From Branchiostoma floridae (lineage: Eukaryota > Chordata > Leptocardii > Amphioxiformes > Branchiostomatidae): a DNA stretch of 64,000 nt. The notes beneath the pieces were generated by a model. The model saw nothing but the letters and a program-made list of their open reading frames with translations, searched no databases and was not told where the DNA came from. Shown here in pieces: positions 18,416 through 46,200 of the stretch (position 1 is its first letter; the number at the start of each line of letters is the position of its first letter). The position numbers and the translations under genes are program-made. The stretch covers positions 15,358,828 through 15,422,827 of the forward strand of contig NC_049996.1 in NCBI RefSeq assembly GCF_000003815.2, in the 5' to 3' direction.

Positions 18416-18849
18416 TGAACGTCAAATTTTTTCAGGATGTTCAAAGATATGTTAGCAGAAGACATGAGGGGCATTGGAGAGGAACTAGGGATCGATGCAG
18501 TGAAGAAGTGTGTCAGAACAGTTTTGGAAGACATGGAAAATCCGTAACGAACGTCAAATTTTTTCAGCACGTTCTAACATGTGTTAGCAGATGACATGAT
18601 CATGAGAGTCATTGGAGAAGAACTAGGAATAGATGCAGTGAAGAAGTGTGTCAGAACAGTTTTGGAAGACGTGGAAAATCTGTAACGAACATCAAATATT
18701 TTCAGGACGTTCAAAGATATGCTAGTAGTTTAAAGTGAGTAAAAAAATCTATCACGATGCAGTGAAGAAGTGTGTCAGAAGTTTGGGAAAACATGGAAAA
18801 TCCATAACAAACTTAAAATTTTTTCAGCACATTCTAATTTCTAAGATAT
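18416..18849 (+). pseudogene. Three decayed tandem copies of the TTI2 3' coding end
   Basis: The last ~100 coding bases of TTI2, its stop and ~30 bases after it are repeated three more times at about 18450-18582, 18583-18720 and 18721-18849 (period ~134 bp). In the original frame the first two extra copies still read GEELGIDAVKKCVRTVLED and then end in an in-frame TAA. The third copy is deleted and diverged. Each copy is preceded by a TTTTTTCAG/TATTTTCAG tract resembling a splice acceptor. These segments are not separate genes. Confidence 0.85.
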
Positions 18850-19636
18850 AGTAATAGTTAAAACCAAAACAAAAATCTTTTCTGTATCTTTGTTGTATAG
18901 AGTGGTGCCTCTCTCTATATGTAGCCCCTGGGCCACACAGTTGTATGAGCGCTACAGCAGGTGTCTAGGCCACTGGTAGTCTAAAATATGATAAAAAGAA
19001 GATAAAGGAAAAGAGGAAAATTGTCCAGTTTGCATCTTCTACATCAAGCTAGTAGTAGTATGTTTTATGGAGAACCCTGTGCAAGTTCTAACTTCTAAAA
19101 GATGAATATGCCTTTGCTGAAAATTTTTTAGTAAACGAAATATGATAACATTAAAACTAAGGCAAATAACATTAAGTATTCAGTACATATTCCTTTCCCT
19201 TTTGATTCTCCAAAACTCTATCTTTTATCACTGTACACCAACATAGCACAACTGTCCTTGTGTAACTTTAAGTTGTAACTTTACTTGTATAACTAATAAC
19301 TTTGTGAATCCCTAAGTCACGTAAGTGAAAGGAAAGTTCTATAATGCTCATCTGCTGTAATAGTCACATATCGGTACAACTCCATCAAAAATGCATTAAA
19401 GTTAATGACATCAAATCATCTACTTCCTCTTTATAAAAAGAACATTCCTTATTCTCTCTAGATTACTATCGTTACATTAATACATAATTATAGTGCTGTT
19501 AATTACATGCAATTTTATTTCCAATCTACGGGGAGACATTTTGATTGCTTTTGCCCGCACAGCACTCAAGTCAGGACCTCATAGGTGGCATAAATATTAA
19601 AATTGGCGCCTGATGGTTCACAGTAGGCGATGGGTA
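18850..19636. other. No gene seen; TTI2 downstream region
   Basis: AT-rich non-coding sequence after the TTI2 repeats. No clear polyadenylation site or repeat family was identified. Confidence 0.45.
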
Positions 19637-19659
19637 GGGTGTAGGGGGACTTGTTGTAA

Positions 19660-20041
19660 GGCCTAGGAAAAAAAATGTTGTGTTTCCTGTTTCCCTACCT
19701 ACCCTAGAAAACCTGCCGACCCTAGACTTTTTTTCGTTGGGCAGTGGAGCCACATGGCTTCCAGTTAGAATTTTTATTCAGCCTGCTGCCTGTTGAAGTA
19801 AGAATGCTGCTTGACCTATCTAATGAAGGATAAATTATCTTTTTATGCACAAAATTTAAAGTTTAAGAGACAAGTATCCTCATGCTACATTTCAGTTTAC
19901 TTTGATCAACTGTATTGTAATATGTCACACTCGAGTTTTGGCCAGCCTAAAAATATTACAAGAAAAAAAGATAATCCCTACCTACCGACCCTAATTTCTT
20001 CAGGATCGAAACTGGAAACACAACATTTTTTCCAAGGCCCA
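19660..20041. mobile_element. MITE family D, copy 1
   Basis: The left end GGCCTAGGAAAAAAAATGTT with GTGTTTCCTGTTTC and the right end GAAACTGGAAACACAACATT with TTTTCCAAGGCC are inverted repeats of about 33 bp. CCTACCTACC with GACCCTA words occur inside both arms. A second copy is at about 35611-36045. It is non-coding. Confidence 0.75.
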
Positions 20042-20119
20042 ACATAATTTGTTCCAATCCCTGAAATTTTGTCATCGAACAAGTTCTCTGGAACCTATTC
20101 CTTACTTTGCTGGTCAATT

Positions 20120-20326
20120 GATGTTACCACCAAAAGGTTTGAATGCGTAAATCTCCAGACGGATAGCAGAAGCGAACATAGGAGAAAACTACTCTCTGGA
20201 TGGTACTAAGGCTAGAGGGTAGCCTGGGTACTATCTGACTTCTCCTTACACTCGCTACCCTAAGTATTTTTTTAGGGAAGCGAGTGTAAGGAGCCCCGGT
20301 AGAAATCGGATGGTACCCAGGCTAGC
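20120..20326. mobile_element. Small element(s) with AGCCTGGGTACCATC-type ends
   Basis: At 20220-20324 an element begins TAGCCTGGGTACTATC and ends GGATGGTACCCAGGCTA, with an inner inverted pair CTCCTTACACTCGCT / AGCGAGTGTAAGGAG. Just upstream, about 20120-20213 is the inverted equivalent of the left ~100 bp of the recombinase-bearing segment at 47534. It shares GGATGGTACTAAGGCT, the word for CTATGTTCGCTTCTGCTA and CCTTTTGGTGGT. These look like non-autonomous relatives of the larger element. Confidence 0.65.
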
Positions 20327-20550
20327 TAGAGGGTGTAGGGGGACTTGTTGTAATCTTGTGCCGATCTTGATAAGACCACCTGTGGGTACAACATGCCCCA
20401 ACGAGGCACTAATTACTTCATCACAGATGACTGGGTGGAGCTCCACACAAAGGAGGATGTCCCCCCAACAATGCGCACAGATAAGGGTGCAGATGTGTTA
20501 GGGCATTATGGAGAATTACAGCAGATAAGGGTCGTCTAGACAATGATGAG

Positions 20551-21420
20551 CTAAGTGTGGGGCCTTTTGGAATTCTGCAGTGGAGGATGGATAACGCTGT
20601 GGTCAGACTCGTCATGTCGCATAACCTTATGCTGGGACATCATCTACATGGACGGAGATCTTTCATCATGGAGATGTTAGAATAAGGCCCAATCTAGACA
20701 CAGTTTTTACTGATATCTGTGGGGATGTCGGGAGGGATCTGGAACGTTGGCTGCGGGACACCCGTGGCGCTTGCAGTCATAAACAGCTATGTAGCCTAAT
20801 GAGCCCGCATTATATGCTAATGAGCCCTCCCGAAGTCGGGACACATCTACACGCGTGCGGAAGCTGTCGGGGACACCTGCTAAGCTATCGTACGAATGGT
20901 CCGGACCTTTCGGGAGAAATTTTCCCGATATCTTTATGGCGATATTGCAGTTCCATCTAGACGCTGAAAAAAAGCTGTCGGCGAGAGGTTGTTGGCTCGC
21001 CGATATTGTGAAAATCCGTGTCTAGATTGTGCCTAAGTGTGGGGCCTTTGGAATTCTGCAGTGGAGGATGGATAACGCTGTGGTCAGACCACAGGCGGAA
21101 GGCCATCCAGATTTTGTTGATATCAGTATTACTTTGCCATATTATTAAAAATCAAACTCAAACAGTGTGTACTTGTTCCACAGAGATTCCCAAGAATCAT
21201 ACACTACCCTTAACACACGCTGTGTAAACCGAAAGTTTCCCGAGAATCGGACACTAACACACACTGTAACGTTACTTTGGTCCACTGTGTGTTGAGTGTA
21301 TACGTGTGCAAAGAAAGCAACAGAGATTTTGACAAAAACTCTTATGTCCTATCGGTCAGACTTGTCATGGCACATAACCATATGCTGGGACATCATCTAC
21401 ATGGACGGAGATGTTAGAAA
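20551..21420. repeat. Locally duplicated segment interrupted by a MITE
   Basis: A ~58-bp stretch (CTAAGTGTGGGGCC, TTGGAATTCTGCAGTGGAGG, ATAACGCTGTGGTCAGAC) lies at 20551-20608 and, with a one-base indel, at 21033-21089. The following part (ATGCTGGGACATCATCTACA, TGGACGGAGAT) at about 20620-20660 recurs at about 21371-21411. A MITE occupies 20694-21034 between them. Confidence 0.75.
20694..21034. mobile_element. MITE family E (AGGCCCAATCTAGACAC ends)
   Basis: The left end AGGCCCAATCTAGACACAG and the right end CGTGTCTAGATTGTGCCT form terminal inverted repeats of about 18 bp with one or two mismatches. The interior is CpG-rich and contains short palindromes (CTCCCGAAGTCGGGA, GGCGAGAGG...CTCGCC) but no reading frame. 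The right end coincides with the start of the second copy of the duplicated flank. Confidence 0.7.
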
Positions 21421-22265
21421 AAGCAATCTTTCGTTGTTCATCATAAGTTACGTGGTTGGCCATGCCTCCTCCACTCCTGGAGAAAGAGATCCCTTCAGGA
21501 TGATGTCAAGTTTATGTGGTGCAGGCATATGGCTAGCCTGATTTAATCGCGCTTCTTAGGCCCGTCCTACATTGCCGCGCCGGGGAGTAGGCTACAAGCT
21601 CCGGATAGGGGAGTTTGCATTACACAGACTAGCACTGCCACTGAGTGGTGCAACCAATTATCAGAGATGACAGACATCAAAAGCAAGTTGCAAATGACTT
21701 AGAATACTCTACACAGAAAGCTGTTGCATAATTTGAAAAGGGTAAATAAGTGTCAAAATACTAGTCTCTGTATCTATATAGCCGATATAACCACCCTTTG
21801 GCATAACACACCATATTAGTAGTCATTCCCTATTGGCTGTCAAAATGTCTTCTATTTTCTTGTTTTGTGAACAGTCCACCACATGTCTTTCCCTCCTTGA
21901 ACATGTTTTCCCAAAGTCTTAACCCCCTTGACAGTAAACGGACAGTTTATTTACTTTCGCCCCCCTCCCCACCCCCAGATTTGCACAAGTCACCTTCCCA
22001 GGGGGTCAGAGGTCACAGCTGGCAGCTGGAAGATCTCCCTAACGAGTGGGGCGGGGAGTTTACACTATTAAAAGTCAATTTGGTTGAGGAGGCTGATAGA
22101 CTGGGACCATCTCATCAGTTCGGATGTTCTTCTCAAAGACATTTTCTAGCCTCCAAGCAAAACAGTTAACTAGTGTCTGTTCCGGTAGAGACAGATGATA
22201 AAATGTCATTTTTAACAAATGACAGATTAGGGAGTGTGTTTCTTGATACGTAAGTGTTTCTTTTG
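21421..22265. other. No gene seen
   Basis: A frame of 100 codons at 21867-22169 (+) has no recognisable domain. No splice or repeat structure is convincing. Confidence 0.4.
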
Positions 22266-22274
22266 ACTAAGACT

Positions 22275-22470
22275 TAGTCTCTACCAGACTCCGGATCGCT
22301 GGAAAATCGTAGAAATGGAACAAATAGAGAGGAATATAACCCGCCAGGGACAGCTCGCGATCCTAGGATCGCGTGCTGTTCCCTGGCCGGTTATATTCCT
22401 CTGGCCGGCTTACTCCTCTATTTGTTCCATTTCTACGATTTTCCAGCGATCCGGAGTCTGGTAGAGACTA
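22275..22470. mobile_element. Palindromic MITE family A with perfect 9-bp target duplication
   Basis: A 196-bp nearly perfect palindrome runs from TAGTCTCTACCAGACTCC to GGAGTCTGGTAGAGACTA. It is flanked on both sides by ACTAAGACT (22266-22274 and 22471-22479), an exact 9-bp target-site duplication. The centre carries GCGATCCTAGGATCGC. The perfect duplication and near-identity of the arms suggest recent insertion. The target length fits Mutator-like transposases, which are not encoded here. Confidence 0.92.
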
Positions 22471-22959
22471 ACTAAGACTACTGATGACCCCACGTTTTTG
22501 TTGTGTCACTCGGTGCATGTAAAATCACAACAAGGTGACATTGGTGCAAGACTGTCTCTAAGACCTGCGTCCTAGTTCGGAAACTTTCTTGTTGGGACAT
22601 AAATAAAATGCAGGAAACAACAAAGATTGATTGCACAGAGATACAGAAACATAGTGAAACAAAACGCTGAAAGGTTCACTCTTTTTCAATAACTTCATCT
22701 GCCATTTTACTCCATTTTGAGCTCATTTTTAATTCTACATTTGCTGTCAAGAAGGGCTCTCCATATGTTTCGAAGATTGAATGAATACTGGTAAATAAAT
22801 AGATGTTGTGGCAGCAGGTGCGCGTAAAAAAAATAAGTCTGCGATTTATTTGTTGTCGGTAATGATAAGTTCATGTTACAGTCGTCACCGTGAAAATCGT
22901 GAACATAAAAGTACACCGAAAAAAAAAAAATCAGCATTTACAATATACAAAAGAAATAA

Positions 22960-23425: not shown

Positions 23426-23429
23426 GACA

Positions 23430-26744: not shown

Positions 26745-27715
26745 TTAATTTGAAAGTTCAACTGTGTTGGTAAAGTCATCCTGAATCAGAATACAATTTG
26801 TAACTTCCAATACCAAAATAATTGGACTTGGTCTTTTGTTTGCATTTGTTACCATGTTTGTAGATGAACAACATAACTCAAGAAGCCATCGATAGATTGT
26901 TAACATGTATGTGATTAGGTTTTGACCTATGAAAAGAATGATTAGATTTCGGGACCACTGGTGACCTTTTCTTCTTAGCAAAACTTACTAGAATCAAGTA
27001 TATATTACAAGGAAATTGATACCAATTCAACTGACTGCAATATTAGACTGCATAAAACTCCTTTAATGTTGTTTGATTTCATACCAACACATATAGGTTA
27101 CGTAAACTTACTCCTAAACAAAAGGCAGAACATGAAATGTGAGAAAATCGTTCACAAGAGGGAGCCATGGGAAAACTAGAGGCCTGTCTCCTCACGATTG
27201 TGACTGACAGTGCTATCGCCCCCAACCCCACGGAGACAGACACTTGATCAGAGAAGTATTTCTCCTGTTGAAATCCTGGCAAGGTTTTGAAGGATGAAGT
27301 GCTAGAATGGTATGTTATCTGGTGTGCTAGTGCCTATAAATACCCCGTTGATGGAGTTGTTTAAGTTAGGGTTGAGTGATGGATGATTGGGGAACAGACA
27401 GGTCAGCAGTTGTGATGCTGTCAAGATGCAGCTGCAGTTTGAGGCTAATCTGATAGAGGGGGCAGCTGTACTGGTGTAACACCATCATACGTAATGGGGG
27501 TAACTTGGGTAGTTGAATTACCGAATAACAATATTCTTTATTCAGAATCAGGGAGTAACATTACAGCCAATGTTACAGCGCCAGTTGATAATCGATGGAA
27601 GTAAGCGGTTATGTTTTGCCTCATCTACAGTGTTCTTTCTAAACCCTGCTCATAAGCTATACTGTCATGTAGTAGTGCAGTGTTATAGAAAACATCAGTC
27701 TAGCTGTTAACACTG
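26745..27715. other. No gene seen; upstream region of BTB-TLDc
   Basis: No supported coding exon. The promoter and any non-coding first exon of the BTB-BACK-TLDc gene should lie here or further upstream, but no specific site can be defended. Confidence 0.4.
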
Positions 27716-27717
27716 CA

Positions 27718-27880
27718 AATATCTTGTATTTTCAGGTAGGCTTTCACTGCAAGGGTAACCATGGGAACACAGGTTCCGCATTCCGCGTCGCTTCCCGACG
27801 GCCTGTTCTCGGGGCTGCCTAGCCTGTTTATTGTCTCCGTTTTGTTGTGTAACAATATCTGTATATGTGACAATATCTAA
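27718..27880 (+). pseudogene. Partial duplicate of BTB-TLDc exon 1
   Basis: An acceptor-like TGTATTTTCAG, 5' untranslated bases and the first 22 codons of the BTB-TLDc gene are duplicated ~456 bp upstream of the true exon. The copy starts ATGGGAACACAGGTTCCGCA at 27761 and stays nearly identical to GGCTGCCTAGCCTG. It then diverges and stops at 27880, a 39-codon frame in total. If transcribed with the main gene it would act as an upstream open reading frame with the same first 22 residues. A third copy of only the acceptor (AAATTTTCAGGTAGGC, in slightly different form) is at about 28084. Confidence 0.8.
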
Positions 27881-28216
27881 CACTTGGGAGGACACTTGAC
27901 AGCAACATCTTAACTGCAGTGCAAAGTGAAATTGTCAGAATTGCCTTGAGGAAGGTCGCAGATACGTCAGCTCTTATGTGACTCCCTTGTTGTGGATGAA
28001 GAACACTGTTGTTCTGCCTTTGAGATTCCACCACATACGATTTGAGACTATGTGTCTGATACCATACTTTTTTTTGTTGAAAATTTTCAGGTAGGCACCA
28101 CAAATGTTACCTGTCATGCCTTTGAGATTCCTGGATTTAAAACTATGCATGTAAGTCTGACATTGCAAATATCTTGAATTTTCAGGTACTAGTAGGCTTT
28201 CACTGCGAGGGTAACC

Positions 28217-31200
28217 ATGGGAACACAGGTTCCGCATTCCGCGTCGCTTCCCGACGGGCTGTTCTCGGGGCTGCCCAGCCTGGTCTCTGACCTTCAGAAG
28301 CTTCTGGACGATCGCGACACGGCAGACGTGATGTTCGTGGTCGGGCGGGAGGAGGTTCCTATGTACGCACACAGGCTGATCCTGTGGGCACGGTGTAAGG
28401 GGTACCAGAGGTACAAGAGGGACTTCTGGAGCAAGGTAGGTTTAAGATATAGATTTAATTTGATATACTTGTTACTTTGTACAGTCATGACATCAAGCAT
28501 AGAAAAATAGAGGCAATAATGAGAATTCCATTCCTGGAAGTGAAAATGCATATAAAAGTGACATTTGAATTTTGGGCAAATGAAAAATCAGTTGGGGCAA
28601 GTCAATTTTTTATGTGCTTGCCCTATAGTAAAAGTGAATTTTTGGAAACTTGTCCAACCCTGGTACCAGAGATACAAGAGGGACTTCTGGAGCAAGGTAG
28701 GCCTATTTTAGGCACTTTCTTCTAGAATTATTCAATGTTCAAAGATATACGCAGTACCTTTGCTACACTAAAGTCTTGTAAAACAGAAATATGCACACCT
28801 AACAAAGGGAGACTTTTTCAAATATCTAATGTCATCAGCTAGCTACATGTACAATTTGATAACTGTAAGTTCGTCTTCACAAGTTTTACTGAGAAGAGGG
28901 AAGAAGCATGTTGAAATATAGATACACATTTTTTTTTGTATAAGTAGAACATAAAATATTTCACCTATCATTCTCTTTGTAAAGTTTGTATGCAAATTAC
29001 TGCATTTAGCCCCAAAGGTATGAGAGAGACTTCTGGAGTAAGGTAGGTTCAGGGTTGTGTTTAAAACCGGTTGTGTCACTCAAAAGTTAGAGATTCTGGG
29101 TTTGAATCCATTTGTGAGCAGGTCTCAATTTTTTTTCAATTCAGCTTTAGGGCTGCCTACCAAGGCTTGTACATGTACATTTGAATTGTTTTTTGAATGA
29201 TAAACCAGTCATCATCATCATCATCGTCATCATTTTTTTTTAAACAGGTTTGTGCCATGGAATAGTTTTGAATGCCTGAGGCTGAGAGGTAGCATTTTGC
29301 CAGCATTACACAACAATGCTATGCCCTTGAGAAAGGCACTTAATACGAACTCTCACTCCACTTCGTTGAAAATGAGTAATACTATCTATATTTAGTATTT
29401 TCAGGGAATTTTTGTTAACGTTACAACATGTCTGTCCATTTTACAGCTGTTGCCTCATTGTGCTATTTTCCAGGTGACAGGAATGAAGGGAATCATGACC
29501 ATCAAACAGCCCAAGTACAAACCTGAGGTCTTCAGGAGTGTTCTCAACTACCTGTACACAGGAAAGGTAGGGGCTCACTATTGTACAGACTACAATGGAA
29601 AATAGCAGTTACTCAAGCAACAGAATATGATTTTGGTGGCATATCTTATTACCTTGATGTCTAATCTTTATCGACGTACAGAGAAAGATATAAGGATGTG
29701 CAGCATGTACAATGTATCTTGTGTAACACTTGCATAACATTGCAAAGACTAAGGTACAAATTGTACAATGTAGGCACTTCATTCAGGTTTAATCCTCTAC
29801 CTATATTTCGTACAGATGACACTGAATGATACCAGTGTTTTAGATAGTTAACTGTGATGTTGTGTGCTATATTTTGTACAGATGACGCTGAATGATACCA
29901 GTGTTTTAGATAGTTAACTGTGATGTTGTGTCGTATATTTTGTACAGATGACACTGAACGATACCACAGTGTTTTAGATAGTTAACTGTGATGTTAATGT
30001 GTGCTATATTTTGTACAGATGACACTGAATGATACCAAAGTGTTTTAGGTAGTTAACTGTGATGTTGTATCCTATATTTTGTACAGATGACACTGAATGA
30101 CACCACAGTGTTTGAGGTGTTAGTGATAGCCCAGGACATGGGGGTACCAGACTTACAGTACAGCTGTGAGGAACACATCTCCAGTCAGCTGACCGTCCAA
30201 AATGGCTGCTTCTTCCTGGCGAATGCTTTAAACACTGTTCCCACGCTGACCACCAAAGGTTGGTTCTGTATTTTGAGATCTGTTTCTTTCTAGAGATATG
30301 TTCTGTCGGTCAGACTAGTTGACATGTTTTAGATTTTTGATAATTGAATGTAAGGCCACACCAATTTAATTTCTTGGTTCACGGATTTTTTCATAAAGAA
30401 TATGGAGCGAGAGGGCGAAATAAAAATGAAAATAAAAATTGTAAAATGGTTGGGGTAAAGGTAACGGCTAATCCAAAACATAAAGAAAAAAAGTTTTCAG
30501 CTTGATAAAAGTACAAAAACACTATTTTTGTACAGTAACAGCACCTGTACCCACACTTTAAGGAGCTTATGATATAAAGGCCAATTTGCTACACCAGAAA
30601 GTTGGTGAATGGTTTCATTAATGGTGAAAATTTGCTGAGTGGTAATTTTTATTTTTATTTTTTTTCCCAAAAAATAGGATTGAGCGAATCCGTGAACCAA
30701 GAAATTCAATTGGTGTGGCCTAATGTCAAGATTTTTTTGGGCACCCAATTTCTTTGGCAACCCTGCCAAATTATAGACTAATAGAGGCCTTCTCCACATC
30801 TATAAGACGTCTTTTAGGATTCAGCAACGTACCTATGATCTAGAAAACTTTTTAATACTTTAACAGTACACAGATCTATAAAGATTAGAAAAAACAAGGT
30901 TTCTTACATGCATATGTGATCCTTTTCCTTTTAACATCTTTATTTAAAACTTTCTTAAGAAGGAGCCAAAGAGATCTACCTCCTTAGGTTAGAAGAGACA
31001 GTCTTTTTTTAATTTGTGCATTTGTGAGAAAAATCCTTTTTACTTTTGTCTTGACATCTATAAACTTTCTTAAGGAGGAGCCACAGAGATCCATCCCCTT
31101 GTTGTCAGATGTCTTCACTTCATCGAGGAAAATGCAGAAGACTGCTTGAGAACGGAAGGGTTCTTACAGCTGCCGAAGGAGTCGGTCATCAGACTTGTGT

Positions 31201-34200
31201 CCAGTGATCAGGTCAGTTGCTGTTGTATTTTGCCCCCAAACTTATGAAGAAAACTAACGTTGACAATCTTGTGATTCAGCTAGTTAACTCCATATTAACA
31301 ACTTTACTTTGGTTCAGCTCCTGCTCGATCCAAGCTTGAAAGCCCCGTGATATCGTGCGGCGCTGTGGCAGTGTTTGTCGCATACCCTAGAGGTCCTGGG
31401 TTCAAAGCCTTTGATATGTCACCAACCTTGCGCCCTTGGAAAGGCACTTAACATGACTTTCCTCACTTCATTCAGGTGAAAATGAGTACCAAGCTTTAGC
31501 TAGGGCCATCCCTCAGATAGGACGTTAAATGGAAGTCACATGCTTGAGGAGAGCCACACCTACATAACTGACTACATAACAACATAGCAATAAGTAACAC
31601 TGAGACTGTAAAGTTGTGCCTAAGTTCCTATGTAATCGATAAATTTTCCAGAAAAAACAATCTTGGTTGTCCAGGCACTTTTTGGCAATACAGCCACAAA
31701 ACAGTTTCCTTAAGCCCCGTTTACAAATCAAGAATTTAGCTCGGCCGAGTTGTCAGCGAGCTCTAAATTACGGGGCTTTACCACATGGTGTAGTATAATT
31801 TTCCATAGCAGCTACATTATTCTGACAAAAATAGGAGAGAAACTACCATGAGCTCAAATTAGTTTGCTAAAGAAACAGTGACTAGGTTAACAATGTAATC
31901 AGTGACTTAAAAAAGTTATGGTTTAAAATGCGAAGTCTTAACATTTTTACCAAATATTTCAGTCTATGATCAGTTCAGTCTATGATAATGTTACATTTAT
32001 GAAAATTTTTTGAGTAATGTCCATTTATCAGACTGTTCTCAAGCAACTTTTACTAAATTTGATCAGGTAAGTTTGATAGTAAAATAAACGTTAAACCCAA
32101 GTAATACCAACAACCTTATCAAATATCAAGGAGACCTTATTAAGTAACAAGTAAGTAGTAAAAACCAACAACTACCACAACCTCTTAGAAAAATCTTAGT
32201 CTGATGTCAAGATGTTACAGTTCTAAATCATGCTTTACCAAACTCGGTAATTTCTGACTTTCTGTCTAACTACTGTGCCAGGTTTGATTTACCTAACTCA
32301 GTCAATGCACCAAAGAACCAATTTGCCCAACTTTGTGCAGTGGTCTATCAGCTCTACCTGCCTAACTATTGTAGTATACGAATCGGTGTTCCAGAGTAGG
32401 TTGCGTTTTGCCATATCTTGACATGACACTAGTGCCTATGTACTCTGTTTTCTTTCTGTATATATATAGAGACGGGCAAGTCCATCTTGCATGTCTGATA
32501 ATCTGCCTAACTATTGTAGCATGTGAATCAGCATTCCGGAGAAGGATTTGTTCGGTCGTATCTTGACGTGACAGCAAGTGGCGACTATGGCATAGACAGG
32601 AAGTGGGCTTCTCTTCAGAGCTTGCCTAACTGTGTGCAGAGTCTGTTCTGTCAGCTCTGTCTGCCTAACTATCGTAGCGTGTGGATCAGCATTTTGCAGA
32701 GAGGTTGCTTTAAAACTTAAATGGCTGTATCTTGACATGACAGTGCCTATATTCTCTGTTATTTTCTGTATAATATATAGACGGGAAGTCTATCTTGCTT
32801 GTCTATCTGCCTAACTATTGCACCCAGACACGATGCTGGGGATTGAGCTCTATCTGCCTAACTATTGTAGCATTTGGATCAGCATTGCAGAGAAGGTAGC
32901 GTTGGGCCGTATCTTAACATGACAGTGCCTTATATACTCTATTTTCTTTCTGTATATATATATATATATATATATAGACAGGAAGTGGACTTCTCTTCAG
33001 TGTTTGCAAAGTCTATCTTGCATGTCTATCTGCCTAACTATTGAGAATTTCAGAGAAGGTTGCATTTGGTCGTATCTTAACATGACAGCCAGTGGCGTGT
33101 AGTACTACATGATACATAAACAGGAGGTTAATTTGCCTGCATATGTGCTCTTGTGCTCTTAGCTCTATCTGCCTAACTATTGTAGCGTGTGGATGAGCAT
33201 TCCGGAGAAGGTAGCATTGGGCCGTATCTTGACATTCTCCTTGACGCGGAGCCAGACGCGATCCCGGGGGTTGAGCTGCAGGTACAGGGAGTTGCTGGTC
33301 ATGGCGTGGCCAGACATGTTCATGCCCTGCTGGGGAGGGGGGCAGAACACAAAAGTTTAGGATTCCAATCGAAGGACATGTTCCAATGTTCAAGGTCATG
33401 AACTTCAAGGCACAAGGTTTGCCCTGACTGAGCACTATTGTGCAATGTTCTGAATGATACCCTACTGGGGAGGGGGGCAGAACACAAAAGTTTAGGATTC
33501 CAATCGAAGGACGTGTTCCAAAGGTCAAGGTCGTAAACTTCAAGGCACGGCTCTTCAATAAAGATTTGCCCTGACCAAATGTTGTAGAGGGCTGAAGTTT
33601 CACATGTATGATGATGGCGTGGCCGGACATGTTCATGCCCTGCTGGGGAGGGGGGCAGAACACAGAGGTTTAGGATTCCAACTGAAGAACATTTTCCCAA
33701 GGTCAACTTGACACTAATGCATTTCAATAAAGATTTGCCCTGACCCTCTATTGTAGAATACCCTGCTGGGGAGGGGGACAGAAAACAAAAGTTTAGGATT
33801 CCAATTCAAGGGTATTTTCCAAAGGTCAAGGACATGAAGTTCAAGGCAATTCAATAAAGATTTGCCCTAAAACACTTTTTTGGAAGGACAAAGTTTCACA
33901 GGTATATGTATGATGATACATGAACATATCGTCTCTGTAGGTCAATGAATTAAGTCTAAACCTTTGATATGTCGATGAAAGTTTGACAGACGAGTATATA
34001 ATTAAGATATGCCAAGTAACAGTTAATCAAGCAACTGAATGTGAGTTTTGGCAAATCCTATTTGTTTCCAAAATAAATGATGTTTGGCGAATCCTCTATA
34101 GTTCCTCTTTTAGGACTCTATAACTCACTTTTGTCCAGGATTCCAGAATGACATATCCATGAAAATTTTTTTTTTTTAAATTTTGGAAACGGCCCAAAAT

Positions 34201-37200
34201 TGATGCGCACGCGGATGTCATCAACATGGCCTAAAACAACTCCAATGACCGGCAAAGGACATACCTGCAGGGACACGATGGTGACGCCGTTTCTGACCAG
34301 CTGGACCGGTTCGTACTGGTTCTCCGGGTGCTCGCACAGAACGTGGAACGTGAAGAAGTAGATGCCGGGCTTCTCTGACGTGAAGCTGTGGCCATCAAAA
34401 CCTGCAATAACAAATGGGATCCACCTCAGATGAAGTCAATTTTAGGATGTTTTTATTTTCCTGGGAATACTGAAGATGCAGAAATATTTGCAGTGGTTTT
34501 ATGTTTGCATTTTTTTTTGCTGTGGCTGCCTCACTGCGAACTCGGAACCACCGCGAACATTTCCATTATAATTTGTAGTATGTGCATGGCGCTACTGCAA
34601 ACACAAATCCACTGCAAACACTCCAATTTTCTTGCTGCCGTGAAATAAACCCCGTCAACATAAATGCATTTACAGTAGATATATCTTAATCTTTAGATTA
34701 CTTTCTTTTCCATACACAATGTGTTCCTTAATTGTTATTCCGATATTTCCAGACAAGCATCTTTCTTAGTTAATCTTTTTGTCAGGTTTACTGAGTGCAG
34801 CAGTTGAGTAGTAGAGTATCATCTTACTCCTTTCTTGACGTTTCATGCATATTCTTCGGACCACAAGTTTTTTGCTAAAAATGCTGACTGTTTCCAAATT
34901 CAAGAAAACGTAATATTCAATATCTACATAAAAGATCAATAGTTCCATGTTATGATTTTAGCCTTGTTAAACCTTGTACAGTTAAGAACTTCTAGAATAC
35001 TTCTTGCCCATTGCTTGTGTACGACAGCTTTGGTTAGTTGAAGACAAGAGAGCAACCATTGATTCCTTGTTGCCATCCAGTAAGGGAAAAAGGACACTGT
35101 CATAGCAAAGATCAGCATGTCACTGGAGAGACTACTATAATTACTTTCCATTTAATGCCCATTTGGACTTCATTTCTGCATGCCCCCTAACATGCTGCAG
35201 ACACAGTAAGAAGAATGCATGTACCCCAGCTTTCTGTCAGTAAGGCCATATTGATTTGATTATATGGATGACATCCGTGCGTTCATCAGTTTTTTTCCGT
35301 CCTTAGGAAAAGCAAGTTTTCAACCATATTATACTTTTATAGATAGTACAAAGTAGCTGTAAAATGCTGTATATTGCAAAAAAATATCGGAGAACAGACG
35401 CTAATGTCATACATTGTACAATGCCAAAGTCAATTTCAAAGTCAATGTCAAACAAAATTAAGAATCTATTGTTCGATGTCTAATTTTTTTGGTCAGTTTT
35501 AGAATTCCCAGAATATGTCATCCATATGATCAAATCAGCCTAATGTAAAACATTTGCACAAGCTTGGTTAAAGGTTTTAACAGCCCAGCAAGTCGGGAGG
35601 GGGGCAAGATTTAGGCCTAGGGAATAAATGCTGTGTTTCCTGTTTCCCTACCTACTCTAGAAAAAATTGCAGACCCTAGACTTTTTTGGATGGGCAGTCA
35701 CATAACTTCCAGTTAGAATTTTTATTCAACCTACTTCCTATTGAAGTAAAAAACACTGCTTGTCCTATTTTCTTCTTCTTCAGGTTGAGATGGCCAACAT
35801 CGTCATATTGATGAATATGCTAATGAAGGATAAAAACTATCTATTATGCTCAACATTCAAGTTTGACATTGAAAGACAAGTGTTGCATGCATTTTCTCTT
35901 TTGTTCAACTGTATTGTGATATGTATCACTAGAGGTTTGGGCCAGCCTTAAAGAAATCACAAGAAAAAAAGATAGCCCCTACCTACCGACCCTAATTTTT
36001 CAGGACTGAAACAGGAGACAACATTTTTTTCCTTTGCCTTATTAAACCTAAGTTAGGTTTTAACAGCCCGGCAAGTCGGGAGGGGGGCATGATAATGATT
36101 AAGAGCAAAATCAAGGCTGGCTGTGTCAAGACCACCCACCTCCTGTTCCCCGGTGACCTCTTGGTCGAGGTTTTTCTGTGAACAAAGTTAACAATGTGGA
36201 AACTTTAATCTGTTCAGTCAGGCTGAAATTGGTCAAGTTTAAGTCTTAGAGTATATCATCGGGACTAGTTAGTGATGCTTGCGCATTGCTGAAAGTTCAG
36301 AGAAAGATTGTATCATAGTTTTCCTAACATTTTAAGCGTTGAAACACCACCTGCAAAGCAGGTTAGTGCAGGTTGTGCACTGTTGTAACCTGCATCTAAT
36401 ATGTGCCAGCCACATGCAGCATTCAATAATTTGACAGCATATAAGGTGGCATCAGGACCACATTTATACATTTTTTTATGGACTGTAAGAAATCAAAAAG
36501 AGTAAGAATTTGAAAAAATTGTAAAATATTAGATTATACAATGTATCTATCTGTGTAGTTGCACATTTGAGAATGGTTTGACTATAGAATGAGACTGTTG
36601 AATACTAAGCTTCAGAAGGAGTGATCTGTGTGCATTTGCTCACCTGTTCCTGTGTTTATAAGCACTTTGTCGAAGATGATCCTATCCTGTCCGCTGGGCC
36701 CGCTCCCAGTGTGCACCGCTGAGAACACCACTGGCACAGTATCCGGTTTTGGGGTCACCTCAGGTCGTCGTCGCTGCGGGAATATCCGCTTGATGTCCTC
36801 CTCGCTGAGGCCAGGTCCAGGCGGCCCCGGCGGGCCAGCGGGACCCTGCGGCCCAATCTGCCCGGGTAACCCGGTTGGGCCGATCCACCCCTGTTCGCCT
36901 TTGCTGCCGGGAATGCCCGGGCCGCCGATGGGACCGGGGCTGCCGGGAGCGCCGATCGGGCCTGGGGTTCCCGGCGACCCGGGTTGACCCGGGGGTCCTG
37001 GTGGCCCGGGGTAGCTGCTGTAGCCAGACTGCGAGCCAGGCTGGGTGTACCCGGGTGTGCCCGGGGGACCTGGGTCGCCGCGGGCTCCTTTGTCTCCTTT
37101 TGCGCCCGGGACGCCGGGAGCACCCAGCATACCGGGTGGGCCGGGGACTCCGGGTTGGCCAGGTGGCCCGGGTAGTCCCGGACCTGCAGCGCTGGGATTG

Positions 37201-40200
37201 AAGCGACCGGTTGTAACGGAGGTGCATTCCTTGCAGAGACCAGGTAATCCTGGGGGGCCGGGGGGTCCTTGTGGGCCAGGGGGGCCTGGTCGGGCGGGTC
37301 CGGCGGGTTGGTCAAAATACGGACTTCCGTACGGCTCTCGTGGGCCAGCTGGTAACGATGGCCCCGGAGGGCCAGGCGGGCCAGGAGGTCCTTGAGGGCC
37401 ACTTGTGCCAGGCGGGCCAATCACTCCGGGTGCGCCGACAGGGCCAGGAAACCCCCTGGGGCCCCCTGCTGACCCCTTCTGCCCGGTTAACCCAGGTGGA
37501 CCCGGCTGCCCGGGTGTACCCGGGACCCCAGGCGACCCGGGTTCTCCAGCTGGGCCTGGGTCACCCTTCTCCCCCACGATAGGCAGGCTCACCCCGCCCT
37601 CCGTACCGGTGCACCGGATCTTACAGGTGGGCTGCGGTCCCGTGCTCTGTGTGGGCGGAACTGCAGGCTTATCGTCGTCAAACAGGAACCCCAACGTTAA
37701 CGGAAATGTCCAGAGCAAGAGAATGCACGTCTTCAAATCCATTGTACACTGAGAATGTCACCCTTGCAGCTTGACAATGTCTTGTTTCTGTGAAGCTTTT
37801 CTGTGAAGCTGAGCCACACTGAAAATGTTTGCCATATACTGAGAATGTCACCCTTGCAGCTTGTGTTGTCTCTGTGAGGCTTTATCTCTCAGAGTGCAGG
37901 AAATTTCTCAAAGTCCTGTGGCAGGCAGACCGTAGAACCCTGAGGCAGAGAGATGGACATAGAATAATTACCATTCCTCACTGGTACAAGACGTTGACAA
38001 CTTTAACATGCATAGCAGCACTAATCAACCATTCCTTGTTGGTACAATTGTGACAGCTTTCAAGACATGGGAGGGGTGATAAATGAGTTTGCGCCTCACC
38101 AAAAGGTAATAAGTAATCTCCAAGCAGATCCTACGGTAGCACAAGATAGTATCAAAAGCTGCCAGAGGAGTGAAGCTGGCCTAGGAGTGTGTTTGGCTAC
38201 CACTGATGACTCCTTTTGGCCAGCTGTAGTCTCCTTAGCCTGCTTTGATACTATCTTATGCCACTGGTAAATCTGCCTTGAGATTAATGATAAGGTACAA
38301 AACTTAAACTTCAGTGCATAATTATTAAGTAGAAAGCCTTTGATGAATGTCTACCAATTTTCAAATCTTTGTACCCCATTTTGCAGGTGACACCCAGTAA
38401 TGTTAGGTGAGTAAGACTGCAAACTGTGACCTTACATTTTGGGTCAGTTTTGCTCTGCTGAAAGTCAGATACCCACTTCTTTCTAGTTCAAATACAAAGG
38501 GAATCCTCATTAAACATTTTGACAATGTCTTCAAAGATTTGATGGCATGAGGAACTCGACTCACACAGCTCTGATCACAGATCATTGATCATGATGATTT
38601 GAAATCAGGTGGATATTGATTAACGACCTCATTACATGATTTTGCCACAAAATTTTAGTTCTATCTGCACCTTATTTCTGGGTGAGACCAAGAACTTATT
38701 GATCACCCCTTGTAACAGCACCAAGCAACATGCCACATATACATATTTTGCACTGGACACTTTCTGCTGCAGAAAACATAAATTTATTGTACAACAATTG
38801 TACAAGGTACCAAGCATAGCATCTACTGAGACTAATCTACTTAATACAAGAGTGCATAATATATAGTATGGGATGAAAATGGTCTTTTACAATCATTGGA
38901 GGCATTTGTAGCATCTAGACATTCTTTGATATATTTTCCTAAGTATACCGTGCAGGGGTTGTCGCATACTTATAGCTCAAGAAAACTGTAACTGTTGTGC
39001 TAAACATTGTATAAAACATTTTATCGAAAGAAAAGAGTTGTTTCTTGAATACATACCATCCAAAATGTCAGTTGCAATGGGAGAACTGGTCTTCACCCAG
39101 TGACACTTATGTCGGGGCCATGTGGGGGATAATCAGATCCTTTCCTCTGTTTGAGGGTGGGTAAGGGGTTTGGAGAGCCCTGCTATGGATGTTTTATTCA
39201 CATCATTCTAGTGAGTACCTCCTGTGTTTAGTATGTGTATTGAAGCCTAGTGCTGACTATGATGATTGAGAAAAATAGTCTGGTTAAATGTTGTGTTTGT
39301 AGACATACATGTACATTTGTACTACCATATCATAACCATAGAACTCAATAAAAGCAATTTGATAAGTTTTTCAAAGAAACTGGATGTATGTAAGTCAAGT
39401 AAGTCAAGGATGTATGCAATTGAATACATGGTAAAATCAAGAAGGTTATTATTTATTAACCTCCTTGGTAAGAAACTGGCATCCAAAACTGAATTCGATA
39501 GGGAAAATTTTTTAATGCCTTGACTCCCTTGAAAAGGACCCTTGTGTTGTATAGTCCCAAATCAATTCAATATGCGACAAGATTGACCATTGCCTTCCTC
39601 TCTTAAACATTAATATTATGATTTGATTGTGACTACAGTGAACAACCCTCAAGGAAAAACAAAATTAACAAAACTAGAGGTCTGTAGTTCCAAAAACCCT
39701 GAAGAAAAAAATAAGACATCATGTTATGTCAATGAAGGTTAGACAATGTCAGCTAATAAGATACGCCGAAAAGCAGTTACTCAAGCAACTGGATATGATT
39801 TTGGAAACGGTCAGCCATTCGGTGTTTTTACTTAAGACATCATGTTCCTTGGTAAACCCCAACACATCCCTAGCAAGTGCAGACCTGCTTTTCTTCCTGA
39901 CAGCCGGCGTGTTTACTGACCAACTGTAATAAACACAAGATATGGCAACAATCCGAGGCATCTGTTACGTTAGACAACACAAACAACTCTGCAACTGTTA
40001 CCGCAACGATTTTACCAGAAAAAATGTAAACTCTCTTTAGAAATATCACAACTTTTTCACAAGAAAACCTCCTTTTTTCAATTGAAAGTCTCTTAGAAAT
40101 AGTTCTGCTGACAATCTTCAGTGACATTTAGAACTTTAAACTTCCTACGTTACACCAAAATTTGTTCCAGACAACCAGTGTAGTACAACCATCCTGTGGA

Positions 40201-43200
40201 GCTGCTTAAATTTTTATTTTCTGCATTTGTGGGGAAGTCTAGGGGCCATAGGTGGGATTCCAAGGCAGACCCTATCTTTACTGTGAGTTTAAGACCATGG
40301 TGCACTCAATGTATCTAAATCAAATCAGGCATGCCTTTTTCTGTTAGACCTATTGAGCTATTTTAATTCACCATTAATCATATATATCGTTGTATAATAC
40401 CTAAAGATAGCACAAAGAAATGATTCTTGTCAATATAATGGTTCAAAGACTACCACTACCATTTAGACTCTTATTTTAGGAAAGAAGACCTATTTTGCAT
40501 TACTCTGTCGGTTGGAAACCAGATACTAGGAAACTTCTAATTGAAATTTGCTCTGTGGGTTAAAGTTTCAAGTTTTGTATCCTGACATTTTGATCTCTGG
40601 GTTAATATTCTTATTAAGATTCGGATGTTAGAATAGATAGATGAAGTACACATTGCAATATTTAAGTATAGCAAAGGTGACAACAAAGAAATATGTCATT
40701 AGAATTTTTTAAAGGAGATTTGTCATGCCATTCCTCACAAAAATGCTTCACACCACATACCAGTAAACAAATCAAGATAACTTTAGCGTTGTGCAGTTTC
40801 GGCTGCATGTCTGGCTTGCAAAAGCATGTTATGGCTTAAGGCCTTACCAATTGTATACATCGCTTATCAGCACTGTTGAAATAAAGATCATAATTTAGCT
40901 TTATTTCTCTTGTAATGTTGTATTGTTTCAAGTTTAAACTACAGCAGTTTTTCTCATCTAAATTAGAGAATTTATGTGACATGTAAACATGTCATTATCA
41001 CCTAGTCTTTCAGGTGCTGGGATAAAATCTCTGCAGTTTCTATAAAACTACAATCAAGAAAAGTTTGGACTATCCTCCAGCAGCTATTCATTGCAAAAGG
41101 CATGTGGTTAAAATTTAAAAGTACTGCAGCTCACCATGGCTACAAAGTTTGCCCCCCTCCCACTGTGACACCAAGTGTAGTGCCTCTGAATAAGGACCCC
41201 CTTGCCCTTAATTCACTGCGAAGTCAAAATCACGTCTGTGGAAATGTGAATTGGTTTAAAGTAACTGTTGCCAGGCCTTGCCATATGACCCGTCAAAGGC
41301 TAAAAGTACTGTCTTTACGTCTGCACACACATCTACGAATGTTCTAGATGTGGTGAGTTATGGGGACCTGTGTTGCATTATGCTTCTTTGTCTCTTATTG
41401 TCACCAGGTTTTTCTGGTTACAGTAGCAGGTTATCAGGTGTAGTGAGCATTGGGCTCAGAACCAATAAGTCCCTAGTTCAATACTTGTGCCCTTGGGAAA
41501 GGCTCCCACTCTGTCTCAGAGTGAAAACAGGTATCTGATTTGGGGTGGGGAGGTAAAAGGCAGGAGAAGGAGAGGGCTCTGTCTTGCCCTTCCAATAATG
41601 TACCCTAGACACACTGTCTATTCAGGAAGCTATGTATGCCACATGGCTGCCTCATCATATACTATTAGATGTTTCATGCCCGGCTGGGTGTCAGCCTTTT
41701 TAGCTTTACTCTGCTCTCTCTGTCTCTTTCCTACATGTAGTTACGTAAGCGGAACAAAGCTACATGTATACGAAGGCAGGCACCCAGGCTATGTTTCCTA
41801 GCTGCAAGAGACTTGTATTATATTGTATTATCATGGTTACATTCTGTGTTCTTTGTCTAAATACAGTTACAAGTCATTGGACAGATATTTAAGTTAAAGA
41901 TGAGATGCCAAAACTACATTGTGTAATATTAGACTGTAAGTTTTGTTATTTGTACATTGCCATACATTGTCACTGATGCAATTGTTGCACAATAGATCCA
42001 TCCATCAATCCATCCATTCCTAATCATAATCATAATCAATGCTTGTGTTGCTGCAGCTTGCCCTGGAGGAGGAGGAGGTGTGGAGACGGGTGCTGGCCTG
42101 GGCCAAGTACCAGGCTAAGGTGGAGAGCTCCCCGCAGAGATGGAGCCCTGAGGAGAAGGCTCGGGTGTGCCAGGTAGGTTCACTTTCTACAGGTGTGCCA
42201 GGTAGGTTCACTTTCTACAGGTGTGTGGCAGGTAGGGTCACTTTCTACAGGTGTGTGGCAGGTAGGGCCACTTTCTACAGGTGTGTGGCAGGTAGGTTCA
42301 CTTTCTACAGGTGTGTGGCAGGTAGGGTCACTTTCTACAGGTGTGTGGCAGGTAGGGCCACTTTCTACAGGTGTGTGGCAGGTAGGTTCACTTTCTACAG
42401 GTGTGTGGCAGGTAGGGTCACTTTCTACAGGTGTGTGGCAGGTAGGGCCACTTTCTACAGGTGTGTGGCAGGTAGGGTCACTTTCTACAGTTGTGTGGCA
42501 GGTAGGGCCACTTTCTACAGGTGTGTGGCAGGTAGGGCCACTTTCTACAGGTGTGTGGCAGGTAGGGCCACTTTCTACAGGTGTGAGGCAGGTAGGGTCA
42601 CTTTCTACAGGTGTGTGGCAGGTAGGGTTACTTTCTACAGTTGTGTGGCAGGTAGGGCCACTTTCTACAGTTGTGTGGCAGGTAGGGCCACTTTCTACAG
42701 GTGTGTGGCAGGTAGGGTCACTTTCTACAGGTGTGTGGCAGGTAGGGCCACTTTCTACAGGTGTGAGGCAGGTAGGGTCACTTTCTACAGGTGTGTGGCA
42801 GGTAGGGTCACTTTCTACAGTTGTGTGGCAGGTAGGGCCACTTTCTACAGGTGTGTGGCAGGTAGGGCCACTTTCTATAGGTGTGAGGCAGGTAGGGTCA
42901 CTTTCTACAGGTGTGTGGCAGGTAGGGCCACTTTCTACAGGTGTGAGGCAGGAAGGGTCACTTTCTACAGGTGTGTGGCAGGTAGGGCCACTTTCTACAG
43001 GTGTGAGGCAGGAAGGGTCACTTTCTACAGGTGTGTGGCAGGTAGGGCCAATTTTTACAGGTGTGTGGCAGGTAGGGTCACTTTCTACAGGTGTGTGGCA
43101 GGTAGGGCCAAGTACCAGGCTAAGGTGGAGAACTCCCCTCAGAGATGGAGCCCTGAGGAGAAGGCTCGGGTGTGCCAGGTATGGTTCACTTTCTACAGGT

Positions 43201-46200
43201 TTCTCCAGGTTGCGGGAAAGCAGAAATGCCCACTTGCACACTTACACACTTACACTTACTTAGGGAGTGAGTGACACTTACAAACACAACCACATTTTGC
43301 TTGGTGCAACATGGCTGAAAAAAAACACTAGTGCCAGGTACAGTCACTTTCCACAGGCTTCTCCAGTTGTCACCACGAGGGGGATGACAGCAAATTTTCC
43401 CTAGCTTTTCCTTTGTAAAGTCAGAAGAGTAACGACTTTGTATACATTGCACCAAACTATAGCATGATAGAAGGCACACAGATATTACTTAATGACAGTA
43501 ATCTCAGTTCTATGCACCTCCTTACTTCTTACTATGTTAGACATTCATCAGAAAGATAGATGACAAATAACCTTTGTGTCTGTTTCTTTCAGCACCTGTC
43601 TGGAGTGATAGAACATGTGAAACTGCTGCTGATAGACAGTAAGGTGTTTGCTGAAGAGGTGGAGCCCACTGGAGCTGTGCCCATGGAGCTATCACTGGAG
43701 AGGTAAACAAATAATTCAAAACCTAATAAAAGAGTATCTTCATTTTTCTGGTCTGTCTGCACTGTACCAGACACATGAATAAGTAAACTATATAAATTAT
43801 GTGTTCACACTGCTTTGACTTTGTTGCACTTTTGACAGCCCAGAAAGACCTTCCAGGGTACTGAGAACATTTGGTTTAGGTAGACAGGTGTGGTCACTTA
43901 TTACTATTAGACAAGATTCTTTTAAGAATGCTTGCTGTGTCATCAAAAAGTGGTCACATTTCCAAGGTCATCTTTATGTGGAGGTGGGTACTTGTACGGG
44001 TCTTTCTGAGTCAAATGCTGAGTGCTTAGGCAAGAAAGCAGCATGTACCCTTTGCTATGATGTACCCCACTCAATAGATAAAGGTTCCAACCATCCATGA
44101 CTCGGTGGGGATCAAACTCATGACCTACCCAACACTCTCCAGGGCTCGAAATTCATTTTGGGGATTAGGTGCACTGGTGCACCCAGCTTAAAAAATTGGG
44201 TGCACCAAAAACATTTTGGGTGCACCACTTAAATTTCAGTAATAACCTTATAATAAAACTTGGTTACAAGCTATCAAATCCTTAAACAAGTACCATGACA
44301 GACATTTTATTCTCTTTCTAACACTTAGAATATGATGCATACTAGTATACTTTGATATCTTTACATACATAAACCTAAGAAAATATTTGGGTGCACCCTG
44401 TGCACCCACAGAAAATAATTGGGTGCACAGCTCCAATTTTGTGTGCACCTAGTATTTCAAGCCCTGGCTCTCCAATACAAGTCAATAACAACAGGATTGT
44501 GATGCTTTGTCCCCAGGTATCGCATTGCAGCTGTACCCACAGGACTGAAGAACAGCAGAGACAGGAGGCTGACCCCCAGAGTCTCCCACAAACTCTTCAA
44601 AGGGACAGACATCCTGAGCAGGGAGAGACTGCCTCTACAGAGGGTACTCAACCAATGGTAAGGACCTGCCTCTGTAGAGCCTTTTGATGTAATGTGTTAT
44701 CTACAGTTTTGACCATGTTGGTGTCCCCATTAGCATTGGACAGACATTCTGAGCAGGGAGAGACTGCCTCTGCAAAGGGTACTCAACCAATGGTAAGGAC
44801 CTGCCTCTGTAGAGCCTTCATGTAATGTGTTATCTACAGTTTTGACCATGTTGGTGTCCCCATTAGCATTGGACAGACATTCTGAGCAGGGAGAGACTGC
44901 CTCTACAAAGGGTACTCAACCAGTGGTAAGGTCCTGCCTCTAAAGAGTCTTTTCATGTGATGTTCTGTCTACAATGTCAGCCATGTTGGTGTCCCTATTG
45001 GCATTTTATTATATCATAGCTGAAACATGTTTGGATGGACATTCTGATCAGGGACAGACTGCCTCTACAAAGGGTACTCAACCTATGGTAAGGTCCTGCA
45101 TCTAAAGAGCCTTTTAATGTAATGTGGTGTCTGCTTTGTCGACCATGTTGGTGTCCCCATTAGCATTTCATTATATCATAGCTGAAACATTTTTGGACGC
45201 ACATTCTGATCAGGGACAGACTGCTTCTGCAAAGGGTACTCAACCAGTGGTAAGGTCCTGCCTCTATGGAGCATTGTAAAATGTGACCTGCACTGTGTTG
45301 GCCATGTTGGTGTCCCTTAAAGTCATAGCTGAAACATATTTGAACAGACATTCTGAGCAGGGAGAGACTGCCTCTACAAAGGGTACTCAACCAATGGTAA
45401 GGGCCTGCCTCTGTAGAGCCTTGTCAAATTCAAATGATGTAACCATGTTGGTCTCCCTATTAGCAATATATATCTGAACCATTTGGAGCTATCAAGCAGC
45501 TTTCTGTAAAACTGTATAAAAAGTTTGATCAATAGCATTATGCAGTGTTGTAAGCAGTAAGATTGTTTCCCAAGCTCTTAAGGTAGACAAGCCAGAAGTT
45601 AATAATTGCTAATCAGGTACAAAGGAAAATTTAGAAAGAAGAGGAAAAGTAGACCACACAACCTTGGTATACCTCAGTATGTTAATTAGGTAATGTAATC
45701 CGAGTTGTTCTTTGAGTGTCTACCATCTTGCTCCATAGTGCAGCCCTGCTGTAATAAAGGTCCACGTTGTGACAGTTTCTGAGGGACCCCTTTGCAATCC
45801 TTGTGTACTTAACTGGTGTTATGTTTTCCCGTTGTGTTTAACCCCAGGTACGGGGACAGTAAGCAGGAGTGGAGACTGCTGTACAAGGCGTCCAGAGACG
45901 GTTACACGGCCGATGCATTCCACCAGAACTGTGACGGTTTCAGCCCCACCATTGTGCTCATCCTGGTGAGTTGGTCGTTTCACATGAGCGCCACCTAGTG
46001 ACTTTTGCTATTATTACATAAGTCTGGACTCTTATGAACATGTTTAATATGTTACTATCATGTCCTGTTGATATATCTGCCTATGTTGGTCAATTTATAT
46101 ACAACTCTTTTAAAAACGGGGAAAATATCATACTGTCCTGAAGCAGCACATAACGTTAGCCTGATTGTTAATCCTATTATCATTCGTAAAATAGATTAGT

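Follow-up and report, generated by a model that had tools for sequence, protein, structure and literature searches.

Mirage-like repeats across exon edges in a 64-kb stretch of the amphioxus Branchiostoma floridae genome

The DNA considered here is a stretch of 64,000 nucleotides of the amphioxus Branchiostoma floridae (NCBI RefSeq assembly GCF_000003815.2, contig NC_049996.1, positions 15,358,828 to 15,422,827 of the forward strand), which in its full length is called the window in the following. The genome assembly to which it belongs comprises 513.4 Mb in 431 contigs. According to exon models that combine the reading frame with splice dinucleotides and domain matches, the window carries the gene TTI2, a BTB-BACK-TLDc gene with 11 coding exons (hereafter BTB-TLDc), a C1q gene with three exons that is nested in BTB-TLDc intron 4 on the opposite strand, and three receptor tyrosine kinase copies. 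In the first three of these genes, exon edges are repeated in the adjacent non-coding sequence, and it is these repeats that the present study deals with.

Repeats were detected by comparing each exon with its surroundings (self-comparison, given as self-match below) and with Tandem Repeats Finder (TRF). Nine copied exon edges were found in the window: six splice sites, the stop ends of TTI2 and C1q, and the start side of BTB-TLDc exon 1. Among the splice sites donor and acceptor sides are equally represented, with the donors of BTB-TLDc exons 1, 5 and 7 on the one hand and the acceptors of BTB-TLDc exons 3 and 4 and of C1q exon 3 on the other. At all nine edges the extra copies lie on the non-coding side, as judged by self-comparison, and the repeated stretch straddles the boundary, with its outer end 8-95 bp inside the exon. 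The individual copies are:

18321..18834, plus strand: 132-bp array of 3.9 copies, with the last 95 bp of the TTI2 coding sequence including the stop, plus 3' flank (TRF, self-match)
27710..27826, plus strand: copy of the BTB-TLDc exon 1 start side (28160-28282), 91%, with 66 bp of the exon inside (self-match)
28662..28701, plus strand: copy of the BTB-TLDc exon 1 donor (28401-28440), 98% (self-match)
29012..29049, plus strand: second copy of the BTB-TLDc exon 1 donor, 87% (self-match)
29800..30113, plus strand: 66-bp array with the BTB-TLDc exon 3 acceptor and the first 30-36 bp of exon 3 (TRF, self-match)
30947..30985, plus strand: single 39-bp copy of the BTB-TLDc exon 4 acceptor, 87% (self-match)
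42165..43107, plus strand: 30-bp array of 31.5 copies at the BTB-TLDc exon 5 donor, with 9 bp of the exon inside (TRF, self-match)
43105..43178, plus strand: second copy of the last 74 bp of BTB-TLDc exon 5, 72/74 identical, in frame with exon 5
44603..45422, plus strand: 133/162-bp array with the last 50-55 bp of BTB-TLDc exon 7 and its donor (TRF, self-match)
33457..33868, minus strand: three copies of the C1q exon 3 acceptor region, 72-87%, with 8-29 bp of the exon inside
32320..33083, minus strand: several degenerate copies downstream of the C1q exon 3 stop end, 68-91% (self-match)

A preliminary description of the window had listed at least eight arrays or repeats that start exactly at an exon boundary, carry its splice site or stop, and affect both strands, both donor and acceptor sides and unrelated genes. 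Much of this stands: self-comparison, TRF and exon models together give nine crossed edges, the copies do carry splice sites (six) or stop ends (two), and with three donors, three acceptors and a C1q gene on the minus strand both sides and both strands are involved. However, an exact start at the boundary was found nowhere, as all nine repeats reach into the exon, and they are not all arrays. True TRF arrays are present at three of the six splice sites (BTB-TLDc exons 3, 5 and 7), while the copies at BTB-TLDc exons 1 and 4, one or two in number, are spaced and form no array. The TTI2 3' end, which had been included in the same list, is a real stop-end repeat, yet it concerns the stop and 3' flank of a single-exon coding sequence and involves no splice boundary. 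Likewise, three genes are indeed affected, but six of the nine edges belong to BTB-TLDc and two more to the C1q gene nested in its intron 4, and they are therefore not independent loci. Within the four window arrays the units match at 81-93% (TRF). At 75% identity, 22 of the 28 splice sites in the window are without a local copy.

The models of the three affected genes, exon models unless stated otherwise, are as follows:

16844..18415, plus strand: TTI2 coding sequence, single exon, 523 amino acids (open reading frame, ORF; Pfam Tti2, 3.2e-21)
28217..28435, plus strand: BTB-TLDc exon 1, coding part
29474..29566, plus strand: BTB-TLDc exon 2, without local edge copies at 75%
30087..30258, plus strand: BTB-TLDc exon 3
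31087..31211, plus strand: BTB-TLDc exon 4
42057..42173, plus strand: BTB-TLDc exon 5
43593..43702, plus strand: BTB-TLDc exon 6, without local edge copies at 75%
44517..44657, plus strand: BTB-TLDc exon 7
45848..45965, plus strand: BTB-TLDc exon 8, without local edge copies at 75%
47098..47186, plus strand: BTB-TLDc exon 9, without local edge copies at 75%
49796..49888, plus strand: BTB-TLDc exon 10, without local edge copies at 75%
50458..50641, plus strand: BTB-TLDc exon 11, including the stop
36644..37742, minus strand: C1q gene exon 1, long, collagen-like
34265..34401, minus strand: C1q gene exon 2 (exon model; Pfam C1q, 7e-20)
33177..33329, minus strand: C1q gene exon 3, including the stop

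In the intron preceding BTB-TLDc exon 9, an 82-bp array (46828-46998, TRF) stops short of the exon. Near the end of exon 11, positions 50617-50629 match exactly, over 13 bp, positions 50437-50449 just 5' of the acceptor of this exon; the match could be due to chance or represent a tiny copy of the exon edge.

The copied splice sites include decoys, a decoy being defined here as a site that resembles the true one to 72% or more over 18 bp. Scores were calculated with a simple matrix of the general consensus that was not trained on this species, and on this scale the decoys mostly score about equal to the true site. The exon 5 donor (true site 6.5) has 30 decoys at 4.9-6.5, of which 29 lie in the array (5.8-6.5), and the donor behind the second exon 5 copy, at 43179, scores 4.9. 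Five decoys at 4.6-5.0 accompany the exon 7 donor (5.0) and two at 5.1-5.8 the BTB-TLDc exon 1 donor (5.8); on the acceptor side, BTB-TLDc exon 3 (1.9) has four decoys at 1.0-2.0 and C1q exon 3 (7.0) three at 6.2-7.0. The exception is exon 4, where the acceptor copy is weak (-8.7 versus -4.1 for the true site). If all decoy splice sites are ignored, the BTB-BACK-TLDc frame runs uninterrupted over 486 amino acids to its stop. Exon 5 apart, the five copied splice sites of the window have 15 decoys, and for 14 of them read-through runs into a stop. None of the 30 exon 5 decoys does so; 29 of these are out of frame with exon 6, and the last one, located behind the second copy of the exon, is in frame. 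In the exon frame, the exon 5 array is free of stops over 310 codons, and another frame has one stop only.

Concerning the origin of the arrays, the exon 3 array and an array of a myosin gene piece outside the window (L035, see below) were each searched alone against the genome, by a DNA search in which simple repeats and very common words are passed over, and each gave one match, namely itself. Further genomic copies, as a dispersed repeat or a transposon would have, were not found for these two arrays by this search, and since they match only themselves, local products are favoured over dispersed elements. One copy of the exon 3 region was found in the assembly. A longer query with the exon 7 array yielded at least 41 matches, itself and 40 others (the best 40 of 1222 candidates), and these 40 are confined to its first 78 bases, outside the array. 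Five offsets were tried to compare the exon 7 decoys with the first copy; the fifth was out of register, and with the other four 46-52 of 55 exon positions and 25-28 of 33 intron positions agree. The exonic part is better matched, as expected if selection holds the exon copy. AGGT is frequent in the exon 5 array, at 64.7 per kb, compared with 4.27 per kb over the window. As a general seed this motif was rejected, given only 0-3.7 AGGT per kb in the exon 3, exon 7 and TTI2 arrays. Hairpin-prone units were considered as well and dismissed, with 0 of 4 repeat units folding unusually as single-stranded DNA.

Structures of this type have been described before. Tandem repeats over exon-intron boundaries, called mirages, are reported for the amphioxus globin genes BflGb6 and BflGb9, with Adh3 and other loci cited (PMC3087553), and PGBD5 carries 60- and 108-bp repeats over splice sites, with Adh and TnC cited (PMC3902484). 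The preliminary description had mentioned mirages as reported at single loci; they do exist in print, but at several loci and not one, and for some of them undisturbed splicing and allele instability are reported. Shared with them are minisatellite-like units across 5' or 3' exon-intron boundaries and AG/GT in many units (published 10-160 bp), and in the window as well the unit spans the boundary, occurs on donor and acceptor sides and contains splice signals. Unlike in the published mirages, one gene here has 5 of its 20 splice sites affected, up to 31.5 copies are reached (22 in L035) and stop ends are also copied. A related case is VCBP3, whose introns contain partial exons with splice sites (PMC2632668). 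In both cases the introns of an amphioxus gene contain exon copies, complete or partial, together with canonical splice sites, whereas there they are described as exon copies of an immune gene and here they are short tandem arrays. Intron gain by tandem genomic duplication, an idea attributed to Rogers (PMC3087553) for which a potato RdRp case is described (PMC4974935), is alike in that AG/GT is copied and that exon 5 3' parts flank an array rich in splice signals; in contrast, the arrays reported here lie within existing introns. A genome-wide count of such repeats was not found among the titles and abstract openings of the literature matches listed, subscription papers being mostly outside this search. 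The novelty claimed earlier is thereby narrowed: the type of structure is already known, and what is new here is the density together with a first small test of exon-edge placement.

Taken together, we interpret the exon-edge repeats as amphioxus-type mirages, that is, as local tandem duplications, some of which are now minisatellites, with a unit that straddles the exon edge, and we put the probability of this reading at roughly 0.8. Because the unit straddles the edge, splice sites or the stop are copied into the intron or the 3' flank. Such duplications may have originated by replication slippage or by microhomology-mediated duplication, and the arrays could have grown by unequal exchange. 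They would persist because the extra copies sit in removable sequence, and the spliceosome would keep the exon-proximal site (the first donor, the last acceptor) via exon definition. Two observations weigh against this interpretation: the exon 5 array is open in the frame of its exon and so could be translated, and for 2 of 4 decoys at the exon 3 acceptor conservation is no higher in the exonic than in the intronic part, which speaks against a simple detectability effect.

It had further been held that so many hits on exon edges would not be expected of ordinary minisatellites. The window was flagged because of these repeats, and its P values therefore flatter the finding. Local copies (75% identity, within 1.5 kb) exist for 8.2% of the 40-mers in the window; in 20 preset 10-kb stretches the mean is 8.2% and the median 4.0% (one stretch is all N and was counted as zero, others contain some N), and a mean of 15.7% was obtained for four stretches next to the window. 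When positions were permuted by circular shift, the 75% threshold gave 6 of 28 splice sites with copies versus 2.3 expected (P 0.039), the count being 5 or 6 depending on a one-base shift of the test windows, while P is 0.077 at 70%, 0.33 at 80% and 0.26 at 85%. TRF arrays show no clear excess under circular shift, neither on splice sites (3/28 versus 1.65 expected, P 0.27) nor on splice sites and gene ends together (4/40 versus 2.35 expected, P 0.25); counted per array, three of 10 TRF arrays reach a splice site versus 1.16 expected (P 0.08). The comparison with permuted positions within the window thus favours the earlier claim at one threshold and fails to do so elsewhere. In a placement test over the window gene span, six of 15 clusters cross an exon edge versus 1.35 expected (P 0.001), a value biased by the choice of the window.

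Outside the window, six myosin gene pieces (L033-L038) were picked for compactness from 142 Pfam match rows, with their own repeats unseen. By the time the placement test was designed, the L035 arrays were already known; L037 and L038 were added later, their own repeats likewise unseen. For the first four pieces 17 of 18 match rows were used (one L034 row was dropped) and 29 of 34 sides had a candidate splice site; for L037 and L038 these were six of eight sides. Under uniform placement, four of the nine repeat clusters in the six pieces cross a known exon edge versus 1.15 expected (P 0.016), and at 85% identity four of six do so versus 0.98 expected (P 0.007). Three of the four crossing clusters belong to L035, and without this piece one of three crosses (P 0.20; at 85% one of one, P 0.16). 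L034, L036 and L038 have zero repeat clusters, and of the two in L037 neither crosses a known exon edge. For L014 and L022, genes taken from the preset stretches, one of four clusters crosses (P 0.29). The expectation that chance would hit exon edges less often is therefore weakly supported, by the placement of the myosin clusters, while the other tests are weak. L035 has five TRF rows, one of which is a 17-bp unit, and the other four arrays lie at exon edges:

653-1046, 1121-1287, 1832-2930 and 3635-3753 of L035: exon-edge arrays (TRF)

The array at 1832-2930 consists of 22 copies of 50 bp and carries the acceptor of the P-loop exon, for which 21 decoy acceptors are close in score to the true site. 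Over positions 1-4601 of L035, 40.6% of the 40-mers are locally duplicated, and one exon has separate arrays on both sides. In L014, which we take to be a DMXL-like gene, the array 5619-6086 crosses a predicted exon donor, and the array 2785-3636 looks alike by sequence, its exon being assigned by eye. In eight C1q loci (L001-L008) no clear exon-edge array was found. Mirages are found at further places in this genome (L014, L033, L035) and accumulate in some genes; a general excess of repeats at exon edges is suggested but not established.

Several broader counts bear on that excess. Seventeen ORFs were picked by hand; two had no exon and four low-scoring ones were dropped, which left 11 exons with 22 boundaries. 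Splice sites with copies outside the window number 6 of 57, four of them in L035, and without L035 they are 2 of 51 versus 0.85 expected from nearby intron positions. An automated exon-edge score applied to 50 arrays revealed no clear excess, with nine at a score of at least 15 compared with 10.5% of 1960 null intervals; at scores of at least 20, 25 and 30 there were 3, 2 and 1 of 50 arrays versus 7.7, 6.9 and 5.8% of the null. This score is insensitive, as it misses the likely cases L014:2785 and L035:3635. Matched intron controls 60-400 bp away, with 12 of 85 splice sites versus 6.74 expected at 75%, were set aside: neither the ratio of 1.8 nor the gene bootstrap P of 0.002 is taken at face value, because the same arrays largely occupy the control positions. 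At 80% such controls gave 8/85 versus 6.15 (P 0.16) for offsets of at least 40 and 9/85 (P 0.011) for offsets of at least 20.

One might argue that there is no attraction to exon edges at all, and that a genome rich in minisatellites meets some of them by chance, which a reader then notices. We consider this quite possible, although short of an even bet. The background of locally copied 40-mers is high (8.2% in the window and in the preset stretches), three of the four circular-shift thresholds are not significant, as are the TRF arrays (P 0.27), the automated test of 50 arrays falls below the null at higher thresholds, and little is seen outside the window and L035 (2/51 versus 0.85), in the myosin pieces without L035 (P 0.20) or in L014 and L022 (P 0.29). 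However, clusters within gene spans cross exon edges above uniform placement (myosin P 0.016; window P 0.001, biased), and three crossing clusters occur in L035 alone. The same crossing excess, together with the AGGT richness of the exon 5 array, would fit exon edges being mutational hotspots for tandem duplication in this lineage, either through CAG/GT microhomology or through splicing or transcription exposing the DNA. Such a hotspot appears doubtful to us: the other three arrays are AGGT-poor and the four units form no unusual hairpin, the TTI2 and C1q stop ends, which are unconnected with splicing, are copied too, and the excess rests largely on two genes. In addition, a detectability bias could supply part of it. 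An exon copy is held by selection, and a pair may therefore stay recognisable longer than two free intron copies; part of the apparent exon-edge excess probably stems from this.

Two further explanations concern the arrays as such. If the exon 5 array were translated, exon 5 would extend from 42057 to 43178 and add 335 residues, mostly 10-amino-acid repeats. This would be in line with the exon frame being open through 310 codons, with the second donor at 43179 being in phase and with a simple gene finder choosing the long exon, yet we hold it for highly improbable. The open frame follows from the 30-bp unit and, as another frame has one stop only, is weak evidence for translation; the first donor is the stronger one (6.5 versus 4.9), and the added segment would start 18 residues past the matched BACK part, of which the profile is matched to position 75 of 103 only. 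That the repeats were collapsed or falsely expanded during assembly is in our view extremely improbable. Assembly errors are usual in tandem arrays, and in a published amphioxus case copy numbers differed between two assemblies; however, the repeats of that case were confirmed by new sequence data (PMC3902484), and the units found here are not identical (81-93% matches), a divergence that a falsely expanded single read would not produce.

Local duplications of the mirage type thus remain our preferred reading, and with up to about 30 near-equal splice sites beside a working exon they represent natural experiments on splice-site choice. A more far-reaching version, in which exon edges truly duplicate preferentially, about one splice site in ten has decoys, and the near-equal sites are intermediates of intron gain or alternative exons, strikes us as unlikely. 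If it were true, there would be a standing supply of such intermediates and the spliceosome would have to choose among near-equal sites. Should duplication really be more frequent at exon edges than in the interior of introns, ongoing intron gain and exon change could be followed in amphioxus, and ordinary annotation and long reads would suffice to measure how frequent it is.

Some other features were observed along the way. In a 10-kb stretch 10 kb left of the window (L010), seven tandem arrays with periods of 59-154 bp are found, two of which touch a weakly scoring predicted exon. Dispersed-repeat pieces at 29599-29698 and 44400-44477 have at least 52 and at least 40 genome matches, respectively (the best 40 candidates were scored per search). 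ORFs at 48227-49466 (minus strand) lie within BTB-TLDc intron 9, and the one at 48585-49466 matches DUF3504 (4.4e-15) and also QRICH1, the latter below the QRICH1 cut-off; it looks like a tyrosine-recombinase mobile element, presumably of the Crypton kind. The three tandem receptor tyrosine kinase copies occupy 51979-63915 on the minus strand. The LLQLEQ/VESDLAQ junction is interrupted by an intron in copies B and C, while copy A (51979-54936) reads through without an intron, which suggests intron loss or gain between the paralogues. A 191-amino-acid open frame is present at 10413-10988 (plus strand), and its ATG-started part of 129 amino acids has no Pfam match at 0.01. The intergenic sequence 22279-22470 forms a near-perfect inverted repeat of about 190 bp, as judged by eye; similar-looking sequence occurs near 3400-3700, and the repeat is perhaps a dispersed hairpin element.

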